Assembly: GCF_027484205.1 (NCBI RefSeq)
Contig: NZ_JAIXUB010000015.1
Coordinates: 310,001-374,000, forward strand
DNA length: 64,000 bases
Source of the DNA: Flavobacterium sp.
GTDB lineage: Bacteria; Bacteroidota; Bacteroidia; Flavobacteriales; Flavobacteriaceae
Reading direction: 5' to 3'
Position 1 is the stretch's first letter. Each line of letters begins with the position of its first letter. The notes beneath the pieces were generated by a model, which was given only the letters and a program-made list of their open reading frames with translations, ran no database searches and was not told the DNA's origin. This document shows, piece by piece, positions 805 to 30,318 of the stretch. The translations under genes were made by a program, and so were the position numbers.

Positions 805-3660
805 ATGAAGATTTATTATTTTATTTTGACATTGTTTTTTTGTAGCATTTCTTTTGCACAAACCACAATTTCAGGTTCGGTAAAAGACAGTAAAAACGAA
901 CCAATTCCTGGAGCCAACATAAAAGTTGTTGGTGAATCAGACGGAACTGTCACGGATGTTGATGGAAAATTTATTTTTAAAACATCAAAAAAGGCACCTT
1001 TCAAAGTTGAAGTTTCGAGTATTGGTTACGAGGCACAAAACTTAGAAATTACTTCGAACAATCAAAAATTAGATGTTAATTTAGTTGAAGCTGATAAAGT
1101 TATTGACGAAATTGTAGTTTCTGCTTCAAGAACACCAGAGAAAGTTAAAGAATCTCCGGTTACTATTGAAAGAATGACTATTAAAGATATTAAAAAAACC
1201 GCTTCACCAACATTTTATGATGGTTTAGAAAACTTAAAAGAAGTGCATATGAATACAAGTAGTATGTCTTTTAAGTCAATAAACACTAGAGGTTTTGCCA
1301 CTGTTGCAAATACTCGTTTTATGCAATTAGTTGATGGAATGGATAATTCTTCTCCATTATTAAACTTTGTTTTAGGAAACTTAATTGGAGTTTCAGAAAT
1401 TGATGTTGCTAATGTTGAGTTATTACCTGGAGCTTCATCTGCATTATATGGTGCAAATGCGTTTAATGGTATTTTATTTATGAACAGTAAAAGTCCTTTT
1501 ACAAGTCAAGGAGTAACTGCTTATGCAAAATATGGACAAACCAGCCAAAAAGCAGCTGGAAATAATTTATATTATGACTATGGTGTTAGAGTTGCACATG
1601 CATTTACAAAACATTTTGCCGCAAAAGCAAATTTCACTTTCATGAATGGAACAGATTGGTATGCAACTGATTATGATGATTATTCAAGTCCAGGAAGAGA
1701 CAGAAGCCATCATAATTACAATGGGTTAAACGTTTATGGTGATGAAGTTTCTACAAATATTAGAGGTGTTGCAACAGGAATGTTTAATGCAGGTGTAATT
1801 AATGCTTCTCAATTAGCTGTTTTTAATTCAATTTTACCTGATTATAATGTTAGTAGAACTGGGTACAAAGAAGTTGAATTGACAGATAATAAGGTTCAAA
1901 ACTCTAAAATAGATTTCTCTTTACATTTCAAACCATGGGCTAATGATACAGAAATTATTTGGCAAAGTAAATTTGGTTTTGGAAACACTGTTTATCAAGG
2001 AGCAAATAGATATTACTTAAATGGATTTTTTATGCAACAACATAAATTAGAAGTTAAAGGTAAAAATTTCTTTGTAAGAGGATATACTACAACAGAAGAT
2101 GGTGGGAAATCATATGATATGTTGTTTACAGGAATAAACATTAACAGAGCATGGAAACCAGATTCAACTTGGTTTGGACAATATGCAGCAACTTATGTTC
2201 AATCAACATTATTAGGACAAACTCCAGAACAAGCGCATATTTCAGCTAGAAACGTAGCAGATACAGGAAGATTAATTCCGGGAACACCTGCTTTTGCATC
2301 TGCTTTTAATTCAGTAACTAGTAATCCAGATGTTTTAACAGGTTCTAAACTTCAGGATAATTCTAAAATTTGGCATTCTGATGCAAATTATAATTTCAGA
2401 GATTTAATAAAATTTGCAGAAATTCAAGTTGGAGGTTCATATAGATTATACGAGTTAAACTCAGGTGGAAGAATTTATACCGATGCTAATAGCCAAATCA
2501 ACTATACTGACTATGGTGCATACACACAACTACAAAAGAAATTCATGGATGACAGATTGAAGTTTACTGGATCTGTAAGATATGATAAATCTAAAAACTT
2601 TGATGGAAACGTTTCACCAAGAGTTTCATTCGTATACTCTGCTGGTGAACAAAAAAATCACAACTTCAGAGCTTCATTCCAAACTGGATTTAGAAACCCA
2701 ACTACTCAAGATCAATACATTGGATTCAATGTAGGAACAGCAGTACTTTTAGGTTCAGCTCCAGACAACTTAACTAGATATTCAGAAACACTACCTGTTT
2801 CATTAAATGGTCAACCTTTTGCAGGATCGTCAACAGTTACTATTAATGGTTTAAATGCTTATCAAAACTCATACACTGCTAGTTCAGCTGCTGCTTTTGG
2901 AGCTGCGGTTATTGCTGGAGGTTCAAATGCTGCTGCAATTGTAGCTGCATCATCTCTTCTTGATAGAACAGATGTTGATTATGTAAAACCTGAAATTGTA
3001 AAAGCTTTTGAATTAGGATACAGAGGACAAATAAAAGACTTCTCTTATGATATCAATGGTTATTATAATATTTACAATGATTTCATTGGAAACTTAACTG
3101 TTGTTGCGCCATTATATGGAGTTGCTACTGATGGTGGTGGAGACTTTACACCATTAAATCCTGCTTTCCAATCTGCTTTTGCTTTGACTCAAGGTGATAG
3201 AAGAGCATTCCAATTATACACAAATACTGATGTTGAAATTAAATCATTAGGTTTTGGTGTTGGTATGTCTAAAAAAATAGCTAAAAACTTTGAAATTGGA
3301 GCTAATTATAACTATGCACAATTTGATTTTGACCAAGCTAAAGATCCAAGTTTTGAAGCTGGGTTTAATACTCCAAAACATAGAGTTAAAGGAACAATCA
3401 GTAATGATAAATTGTTTAAAAACTTTGGTTTCAATGTAAGCGCAAGATGGAATAGCGAATATTTATACCAAGCATCTTTTGCTGATGGAATGATTGATGC
3501 TGCTACAGTAGTAGATGCACAATTAAGCTATGGAATGCCTAAATTGAAATCAACATTCAAAATAGGAGCAACAAATATTGGAGGAAAAGAATATAGACAA
3601 ATCGTAGGTGCTGGAGCAATCGGATCTCAATATTTTGCTTCTTGGACAATCAACCCATAA
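805..3660 (+). CDS. TonB-dependent receptor with N-terminal carboxypeptidase-like regulatory domain
   Basis: ORF 766-3660, likely start ATG 805 (MKIYYFILTLFFCSISFAQ signal peptide); SGSVKDSKNEPIPGANIKVVG, plug and beta-barrel sequence. Confidence 0.9.
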   Translation: MKIYYFILTLFFCSISFAQTTISGSVKDSKNEPIPGANIKVVGESDGTVTDVDGKFIFKTSKKAPFKVEVSSIGYEAQNLEITSNNQKLDVNLVEADKVIDEIVVSASRTPEKVKESPVTIERMTIKDIKKTASPTFYDGLENLKEVHMNTSSMSFKSINTRGFATVANTRFMQLVDGMDNSSPLLNFVLGNLIGVSEIDVANVELLPGASSALYGANAFNGILFMNSKSPFTSQGVTAYAKYGQTSQKAAGNNLYYDYGVRVAHAFTKHFAAKANFTFMNGTDWYATDYDDYSSPGRDRSHHNYNGLNVYGDEVSTNIRGVATGMFNAGVINASQLAVFNSILPDYNVSRTGYKEVELTDNKVQNSKIDFSLHFKPWANDTEIIWQSKFGFGNTVYQGANRYYLNGFFMQQHKLEVKGKNFFVRGYTTTEDGGKSYDMLFTGININRAWKPDSTWFGQYAATYVQSTLLGQTPEQAHISARNVADTGRLIPGTPAFASAFNSVTSNPDVLTGSKLQDNSKIWHSDANYNFRDLIKFAEIQVGGSYRLYELNSGGRIYTDANSQINYTDYGAYTQLQKKFMDDRLKFTGSVRYDKSKNFDGNVSPRVSFVYSAGEQKNHNFRASFQTGFRNPTTQDQYIGFNVGTAVLLGSAPDNLTRYSETLPVSLNGQPFAGSSTVTINGLNAYQNSYTASSAAAFGAAVIAGGSNAAAIVAASSLLDRTDVDYVKPEIVKAFELGYRGQIKDFSYDINGYYNIYNDFIGNLTVVAPLYGVATDGGGDFTPLNPAFQSAFALTQGDRRAFQLYTNTDVEIKSLGFGVGMSKKIAKNFEIGANYNYAQFDFDQAKDPSFEAGFNTPKHRVKGTISNDKLFKNFGFNVSARWNSEYLYQASFADGMIDAATVVDAQLSYGMPKLKSTFKIGATNIGGKEYRQIVGAGAIGSQYFASWTINP

Positions 3661-10634: not shown

Positions 10635-10674
10635 TTTTTTTGGGAGCGAATGGTTTGGGCTTTATCAGTGATGG

Positions 10675-10769
10675 TAATTCCTGCTTTACATTTCAATCTT
10701 TTTTACACCTGACAGGTTTCAAAAACCTGTCAGGTGTAAAAAAGGATTTCCATTTCAATCAGGGCTAAA
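10675..10769 (-). repeat. Flanked-hairpin repeat element, copy A (minus orientation)
   Basis: Reverse complement tttagccctgattgaaatggaaatcc-[22-bp hairpin]-gattgaaatgtaaagcaggaatt matches the copy at 30228-30318 in both flanks. Confidence 0.7.
10698..10744. repeat. 22-bp perfect palindrome with CCTGACAGG core
   Basis: CTTTTTTACACCTGACAGGTTT-CAA-AAACCTGTCAGGTGTAAAAAAG. Confidence 0.9.
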
Positions 10770-10807
10770 TTGTAAAACCATTTGAATTTCTGTAAGAGGC
10801 AGAAAAA

Positions 10808-10973: not shown

Positions 10974-12227
10974 ATGAAAACTAAAATTGCCATAACATCC
11001 TTAGCATCCATTTCACCTTTAGGGAAAAATCCTGAGGCTATTTGGCGTAATTATCTTTCAAATAAAACTTTAATTTCAACCAAAGACTTTAATGGAAAAT
11101 CACAATTTGTAGCTACAATTCCTCAAGAAATTAGAAATGAAATTGAAGTTTTAAAACAATCCGAAATTAAATACAAAGCTTTAGACGAAACCGTTTTGCT
11201 TTCCATATTAGTTTCGCGTCAAGCAATTAAAAATGCAGGTTGGAAAAGAGGTGACGACTTCGGAATCAATATTGGTTCGTCTCGTGGCGCCACACAATTA
11301 TTTGAAAAACACCACAAAGAATTTCTCGAAACTGGAAAAACGTCAACCTTAGCATCACCAACCACAACACTCGGAAATATTTCTTCTTGGGTAGCACACG
11401 ATTTAAAAAATAACGGTCCAGAAATTTCACATTCTATAACGTGTTCAACAGCTTTACATGCTGTTTTAAATGCGGTTGCTTGGTTACAATCGGGAATGGC
11501 AAGCAAGTTTATTGTTGGTGGAAGCGAAGCACCTTTAACCGATTTCACTATTGCGCAAATGCACGCTTTAAAAATTTATAGTAAAGAACCAATCCGATAT
11601 TTCGACAAGTTCAATACTCAGTGTGACCATAGTAAATCAATTGACAATAATGAAAATGAATGTCAGTCTGAGCATGTTGAAGAACTTTTCTATCCTTGCA
11701 AAGCTTTCGATTTTACAAAAACTAAAAACACTATGGTTCTGGGCGAAGCGGCTTCGGTAGCTTGTTTGGAAATTGGTGAACATAAAAATGCGTTGGCATA
11801 TATTGAAGGAATTGGCTATGCAACAGACGATATCGAACACAATATTTCAATTTCAGACGAAGCCAATTGTTTTCAAAAATCAATGAAAATGGCGTTGCAA
11901 AACACCAAATTAGAAGAAGTTGATGCTATTGTAATGCACGCGCCAGGAACTTTAAAAGGAGATACTTCAGAGTATAAAGCGATTCAGAAAGTTTTTTCTA
12001 AAAACATTCCAATGCTAACCACTAATAAATGGAAAGTAGGTCACACTTTTGGTGCATCAGGAATGTTGAATATGGAACTTGCCATCTTAATGATGCAGCA
12101 CAATCAATTTATCGAAGTACCATTTGCAGAAAAACAAATCGAAAGAAGAGAAATAAAAAAAGTATTAATTAATGCAGTTGGTTTCGGCGGAAATGCCGTA
12201 AGTATTCTTTTGTCAAAAGAGTTTTAA
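10974..12227 (+). CDS. Beta-ketoacyl-ACP synthase II-like protein in biotin cluster, carrying an apparent inserted palindromic repeat
   Basis: SITCSTALHAVLNAVAWLQSG active-site Cys, VMHAPGTLKGD and GHTFGASGMLNMELA His motifs; start ATG 10974. Confidence 0.88.
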   Translation: MKTKIAITSLASISPLGKNPEAIWRNYLSNKTLISTKDFNGKSQFVATIPQEIRNEIEVLKQSEIKYKALDETVLLSILVSRQAIKNAGWKRGDDFGINIGSSRGATQLFEKHHKEFLETGKTSTLASPTTTLGNISSWVAHDLKNNGPEISHSITCSTALHAVLNAVAWLQSGMASKFIVGGSEAPLTDFTIAQMHALKIYSKEPIRYFDKFNTQCDHSKSIDNNENECQSEHVEELFYPCKAFDFTKTKNTMVLGEAASVACLEIGEHKNALAYIEGIGYATDDIEHNISISDEANCFQKSMKMALQNTKLEEVDAIVMHAPGTLKGDTSEYKAIQKVFSKNIPMLTTNKWKVGHTFGASGMLNMELAILMMQHNQFIEVPFAEKQIERREIKKVLINAVGFGGNAVSILLSKEF

Positions 12228-30227: not shown

Positions 30228-30318
30228 GTTTAACCCTGATGGCAATGGAAATTAAAAATGGTGATTGAGGCTGTCGAAATCACCATTTTTTATTGTAATG
30301 TACAGCAGGAAAAGGGTT
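30228..30318 (+). repeat. Flanked-hairpin repeat element, copy B
   Basis: gtttaaccctgatggcaatggaaatt-[13-bp hairpin AAAAATGGTGATT/AATCACCATTTTT]-attgtaatgtacagcaggaaaagggttt. Confidence 0.7.

Follow-up and report, generated by a model that had tools for sequence, protein, structure and literature searches.

The window, a stretch of 64,000 nucleotides from a Flavobacterium sp. genome, contains a gene for a KAS II-like beta-ketoacyl synthase whose best fold matches are FabF structures (Table 1). The expected Cys-His-His set (C157, H322 and H357) is invariant in the ketosynthase orthologues (n = 36 orthologues), and the catalytic residues of the insert-bearing enzyme are intact. The adjoining genes, named from a reading of their ORFs, we take to be bioD/bioA-like. 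The window also holds two matches to the Flavo-1 RNA of Rfam.

Inside the ketosynthase the protein runs from KIYSKEPIR through the extra residues to YPCKAF, and the DNA encoding them consists of an inverted pair of repeat units with their tags facing inward. A sequence-only reading of this DNA had described an imperfect palindrome, translated in frame as about 30 residues; its arms, ttcgacaagttcaatactcagtgtgacc at 11601-11628 and tgtcagtctgagcatgttgaagaa at 11661-11684, lie where it placed them, an ORF check found the frame open through the whole repeat, and its estimate of the added length is borne out. The palindrome itself holds in part: the inverted arms are real, but the repeat unit is a single arm (~21-27 nt), the "palindrome" being an inverted pair of such units, and the 111-nt region folded as single-stranded RNA is not unusually stable compared with shuffles (z -0.35), in part because the TTCAATA addition splits the left arm. 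In the window, TCAGTCTGAGCNNGTTGAAG at up to 3 mismatches gave 1 match against 0.03 expected, and Rfam returned no family for the insert. The AATCAATTG part of the spacer recurs in intergenic copies (e.g. L003, L018 and L024) and in the orthologues L134 and L135.

Table 1 Features at and near the ketosynthase gene in the window, with GIY-YIG genes found inside repeat clusters at other loci
Feature	Position	Strand	Basis or remark
Beta-ketoacyl synthase (KAS II-like) gene, 417 aa	10974..12227	+	ORF; Pfam PF00109 and PF02801; FabF relatives and folds in PDB
In-frame insert, 93 nt / 31 residues (209-239): repeat pair, spacer and T-rich tail	11598..11690	+	Absent in F. aquatile and G071 orthologues; altered form in L134 and L135
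Left repeat unit, consensus CTTCGACAAGCTCAGTGTGACA read on +	11600..11628	-	Compared with genome pattern, L134 and L135
7-nt addition TTCAATA in left unit	11610-11616		Splits left arm
Spacer of repeat pair, ATAGTAAATCAATTGACAATAATGAAAATGAA	11629..11660	+	Comparison with intergenic copies and L134/L135
Right repeat unit TGTCAGTCTGAGCATGTTGAAGAA, read as CQSEHVEE	11661..11684	+	0 mismatches to genome-wide pattern
Tail CTTTTC	11685..11690	+	Like ACcTTTTT after many right units between genes
Flavo-1 RNA match (Rfam RF01705)	10673-10770	-	Just upstream of ketosynthase gene
Flavo-1 RNA match (Rfam RF01705)	30228-30316	+	
GIY-YIG gene in repeat cluster, L257	2627-2941		
GIY-YIG gene in repeat cluster, L106	~2160-2460		
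GIY-YIG gene in repeat cluster, L252	4148-4474		Ends within a unit (SSTSSD)
GIY-YIG gene in repeat cluster, L253	3161-3484		Ends within a unit (SSTSSD)
GIY-YIG gene in repeat cluster, L255	2278-2568		
GIY-YIG gene in repeat cluster, L272			

A dispersed hairpin repeat in Flavobacterium genomes

The repeat unit reads TGTCA-NN-CTGAGCNNGTCGAAG-nn. Searching the 3.6-Mb genome that holds the window with GTCANNCTGAGCNNGTYGAAG, we found 55 copies at up to one mismatch (control, 0) and 82 at up to three (control, 6), lying both between and within genes, so that the proposed resemblance to a flavobacterial GTCACACTGAGC..GTCGAAG-type repeat was right and the alternative of a single-copy sequence, on which the insertion reading would have been given up, failed. 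At up to one mismatch the repeat is held by 25 of 61 genus genomes, patchily, with many having none and this genome the most. Some copies stand alone and others form arrays; paired copies span ~100-120 bp when their tags face inward, as in the ketosynthase, and ~55-65 bp when the tags face outward.

Every unit forms a short hairpin of its own, with an outer stem that covaries: the two bases NN pair with the two that follow GAAG in 47 of the 55 copies, compared with a shuffle mean of 17 and none of 2000 shuffles as good, through the combinations CA/TG, GT/AC, TC/GA and GA/TC. Four of the six reading frames of the unit lack a stop codon, and an insertion of suitable length and phase therefore stays translatable. 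The intragenic share is modest, with about 8 of the 55 copies at up to one mismatch lying within genes.

The ketosynthase loop among orthologues

In most of the orthologues aligned, taken from the genus and the order, only a few residues span the loop. In F. aquatile (G013, NZ_JRHH01000002.1) it reads KIYSKEESEFPCRAF, and in G071, which is 94% identical over the N-terminal half, KIYSKETSEYPCRAF; neither has a segment homologous to the extra residues, which upholds the claim of an insertion. F. aquatile and G071 lack the insert, but it is not unique to the species, being present in two close relatives, and other unit types occupy the same loop elsewhere.

In these close relatives, the metagenome-assembled L134 and L135, the element and its spacer are the same but the in-frame indels differ. 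The insert therefore dates back at least to their common ancestor, unless recombination moved it between them. An assembly artefact or a chance similarity might be suspected from a region in which the right arm alone matches the pattern exactly and which folds no better than shuffles. The same insert in independent assemblies argues against an assembly error, and neither the genome search at up to one mismatch nor the loop search at up to two had a control match; we put the probability of such an origin at practically nil.

Repeat-derived sequence occupies the ketosynthase loop in 9 of 81 orthologues, as pairs in the window, L134, L135 and L161 and as solo units in L136, L166, L178, L205 and L211, and the pattern matched the loop 10 times at up to two mismatches compared with 0 for the backwards pattern. 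Mapped on the tree, presence and absence of the insert takes 5 changes, and counting strong branches alone still leaves a minimum of 3 for the pair label and 3 for the solo label; the nine occupied loops require several gains or losses. It is unlikely, although a reading of some weight, that the insert instead arose in a single gain deep in the genus, most lineages having since lost it or trimmed it in frame, which would make the loop an old feature and not a repeated target. The spacer shared by the window, L134 and L135, clearly one event, agrees with this, as does the near-same peptide, (P/A)K(D/N)C(H/L)PEL(V/G)EWACRA, read from the solo units of L136, L166 and L178 in two distant clades; however, unit types, orientations and sizes differ by clade (long-spacer pair; short-spacer pair in L161; solo forward; solo reverse in L205), the tree asks for the 5 changes, and most of the 81 orthologues carry no trace.

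Gain and loss at the loop are not polarisable, because the tree leaves the branching among the window, L134, L136 and L154 unresolved, and the pair also occurs in L135, which falls outside that group. The left junction differs among the window, L134 and L135, and a clean target-site duplication is not definable; the TAT direct repeat seen at the junctions of the window copy was ruled out as such a duplication, since L134 and L135 have different sequence at the left junction.

Two side observations concern these orthologues. L154 has a unit-like ACTTCGACAGGCTCAGCA in a second ketosynthase loop near residue 341 (GTSTGSA = GGCACTTCGACAGGCTCAGCA), where the corresponding sequence of L135 is degraded. 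Records titled Klebsiella, Rhizobium and Sphingobacterium (the metagenome-assembled L205, L155 and L177) hold Flavobacterium-like ketosynthases, and these titles are probably binning or naming errors.

The insert in the protein

The sequence-only reading had proposed a surface loop, and the AlphaFold2 model fits this: pLDDT falls below 50 at residues 208-236, and the insert is accordingly predicted to be a disordered segment. Outside the insert, dN/dS is 0.06 against both L134 and L135 and 0.08-0.09 against the other three relatives tested; within it the value is 0.54 against L134 and 1.38 against L135, rough figures drawn from 27 codons only. Purifying selection on the gene is strong, and on the insert much weaker. 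Together, the low-confidence model, the dN/dS values and the frame-preserving indels fit a passenger loop that is translated and tolerated. To judge from the open reading frame and the codon changes, the 31 residues are probably present in the mature protein, and we infer that they are near-neutral and have no function of their own.

A repeat-encoded loop that has been co-opted and is now functional, for instance in partner contact or by changing enzyme stability, is very unlikely. Such a role would agree with an insert that has stayed open in three lineages, where all indels preserve the frame, but not with its high nonsynonymous divergence, with the low model confidence there, or with near relatives that manage without it.

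In-frame copies in other conserved genes

At least seven other conserved genes of the same genome carry the repeat in frame, which from our own reading of the sequences, with no family search, we take to encode RmlD, a radical-SAM protein (rSAM), IcmF, a GSCFA-domain protein, AroA, MetH and HemB. Copies in long ORFs were compared with the orthologues of G013, G026, G028, G021 and G036. RmlD has extra residues ending RQTELVEV, MetH has CQTELVEV, AroA has RHTELVEV and a second stretch, and the GSCFA-domain protein has VTLSLSK and LRQAQSHRI; the radical-SAM protein has CHTELVEV, and its counterparts in F. aquatile and G021 have other repeat-like peptides (CHSELVSES, CHSEEGEIS). HemB (VDAEPVEV), at 3 mismatches to the pattern, is a weaker case.

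IcmF (VKLSLSK...LRQAQPD) was rejected as a lengthening insertion and is counted as in-frame presence of the repeat: its loop, of about the usual length, equals that of two of five relatives, exceeds that of two others by one residue and falls short of the fifth by four. Given that loop length is hardly changed, simple insertion is not the sole route. Left out of the count were an ABC protein (LPQAQED), a weaker case at 2 mismatches, and HsdR (L116, 2 mismatches) and L131 (3 mismatches), which had no orthologue comparison. Copies near an ORF N-terminus (L072, L084, L088, L094, L100 and L107) probably lie upstream of the true start and were set aside.

In other genomes, 5 of 24 copies examined lie in long ORFs, and 3 of the 24 are in frame at loops also occupied in this genome (RmlD of G071; GSCFA of G071 and G012). 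A small GSCFA tree places G012 outside G013, which is without the repeat, so that two events, two gains or else one gain plus one loss, are required at the GSCFA loop.

The same loops hold other repeat-like peptides, NSQLTTHN, NRQPTTDN and NLQPTTYN, in the relatives L243, L245 and L246 (RmlD), L237 (AroA) and L222 (MetH), which resemble translated AACTCGCAACT-type repeats found between genes. Where MetH of this genome has the repeat, that of the metagenome-assembled L250 (G028:C42:200-2700) has a domain of ~140 residues, edged by PLTPEGG/APPSGAGG and, by eye, presumably a DUF559-type nuclease.

Spread of the repeat

Like REP/RAYT systems and MITEs, the repeat is a small, dispersed, non-coding palindrome without a transposase of its own. 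A short palindromic element with inverted arms, in a genome that has three Y1_Tnp genes, could be the MITE of some known insertion sequence or a REP mobilised by an IS200/Y1-type (RAYT) transposase. The stretches retrieved around these three genes nevertheless contain no repeat unit at up to 4 mismatches, leaving no RAYT or IS partner among the Y1 genes examined and none of these genes bordered by the repeat; comparison of the junctions of the window, L134 and L135, which differ from one another, revealed no target-site duplication; and the literature reports no transposase beside CGTC-type repeats (PMC3733652). We regard a MITE or RAYT origin as quite improbable.

Five genomes (G000, G002, G005, G025 and G061; Table 1) have small GIY-YIG nuclease genes within repeat clusters, with two such sites on C5 of G000 and a third, with weaker units, on its C27; the G005 and G025 clusters are one shared genomic neighbourhood. 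By a rough count, the 94 kb surrounding 30 GIY-YIG genes contained 20 repeats, against 21 in control loci totalling 538 kb, among which are the decorated ketosynthases themselves. Most GIY-YIG genes have no repeats nearby, and genomes without units also have GIY-YIG genes. The association is a lead only, and a search of openly licensed papers found no literature linking GIY-YIG to such repeats. It is conceivable but improbable that a small single-domain GIY-YIG nuclease (MKTYFVYILKC..YTG.TN..) spreads or seeds the units in a RAYT role, with the variable loops of ketosynthase, RmlD and GSCFA as recurrent landing places.

Discussion

The segment in the ketosynthase gene is an in-frame insertion of a multi-copy repeat whose unit has a covarying stem. 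Very probably, a dispersed REP-like palindromic element entered an exposed ketosynthase loop and persists there in frame as a disordered passenger. In this scenario the element, an inverted pair of ~21-nt hairpin units with TGTC tags facing inward, would have landed in or been copied into the loop in an ancestor of the species and its near relatives; selection would have removed insertions that broke frame or fold, and the ketosynthase copy would have persisted as the passenger loop. Its arrival would be owed to mobility of the element.

The analogy with Rickettsia palindromic elements drawn by the sequence-only reading proved apt, in that the closest described repeats, the CGTC-tagged REPs (Di Nocera et al. 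2013), include RPE-4 and RPE-6 of Rickettsia and have Bacteroidetes among their listed host phyla (PMC3733652). The Rickettsia elements (Ogata et al. 2000, 2002, as cited in PMC10969869) are described there as palindromes of ~100-150 bp that lie in frame in unrelated genes and are translated, with intergenic copies too. The Flavobacterium repeat likewise sits in frame in unrelated protein genes and, judging by the open frame and codon evolution, is probably translated. It differs in belonging to another phylum and in having as its unit a short hairpin, alone or paired, with a modest intragenic share.

With the CGTC-tagged REPs the repeat shares inverted pairs, intragenic copies, no adjoining transposase, a stem of 8-9 bp and a loop of 4-5 nt, here CNNGT (5 nt). 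The tag also agrees, T preceding GTC in 53 of the 55 copies and C in 2, where this first base is the sole independent test, since the search pattern fixed GTC within 1 mismatch. The complementary A/T of stem positions 1-2 is not seen, the first A having its T partner in 14 of 55 copies and the second position being mostly C/G; the tails vary (Ctatt, Cttct, Cttttt), whereas those of CGTC-tagged REPs are unpaired and mostly CCA; and the stem, unlike theirs, has two conserved non-Watson-Crick (G-A/A-G) positions. The Flavobacterium repeat works like the CGTC-tagged REPs and may be related to them, but because the A/T stem rule and CCA tail fail we do not claim membership. Intragenic MITEs, e.g. 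of Coxiella burnetii, and intragenic ERIC (PMC5896051, PMC10969869) are likewise small repeats fused in frame with host genes, and differ in sequence, size and host.

Intragenic palindromic repeats have been described for Rickettsia, several Proteobacteria and a verrucomicrobium (PMC3733652, PMC10969869). Among openly licensed papers we found nothing on the core sequence beyond PMC3733652 and general reviews, and no report of intragenic repeats in Flavobacterium genes, which does not prove their absence.

In-frame palindromic insertion into conserved proteins, best known from Rickettsia, thus also occurs in free-living Flavobacterium. A caution to annotators is that CHTELVEV, VTLSLSK, LRQAQCD and similar peptides in these proteins come from the repeat. 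The GIY-YIG genes provide a lead on how such repeats might spread, a question that the literature leaves open, and the near-empty sites in close relatives, together with several occupied states of one loop, bring the route of gain, tolerance and loss within reach of tests in bacteria that can be cultured.
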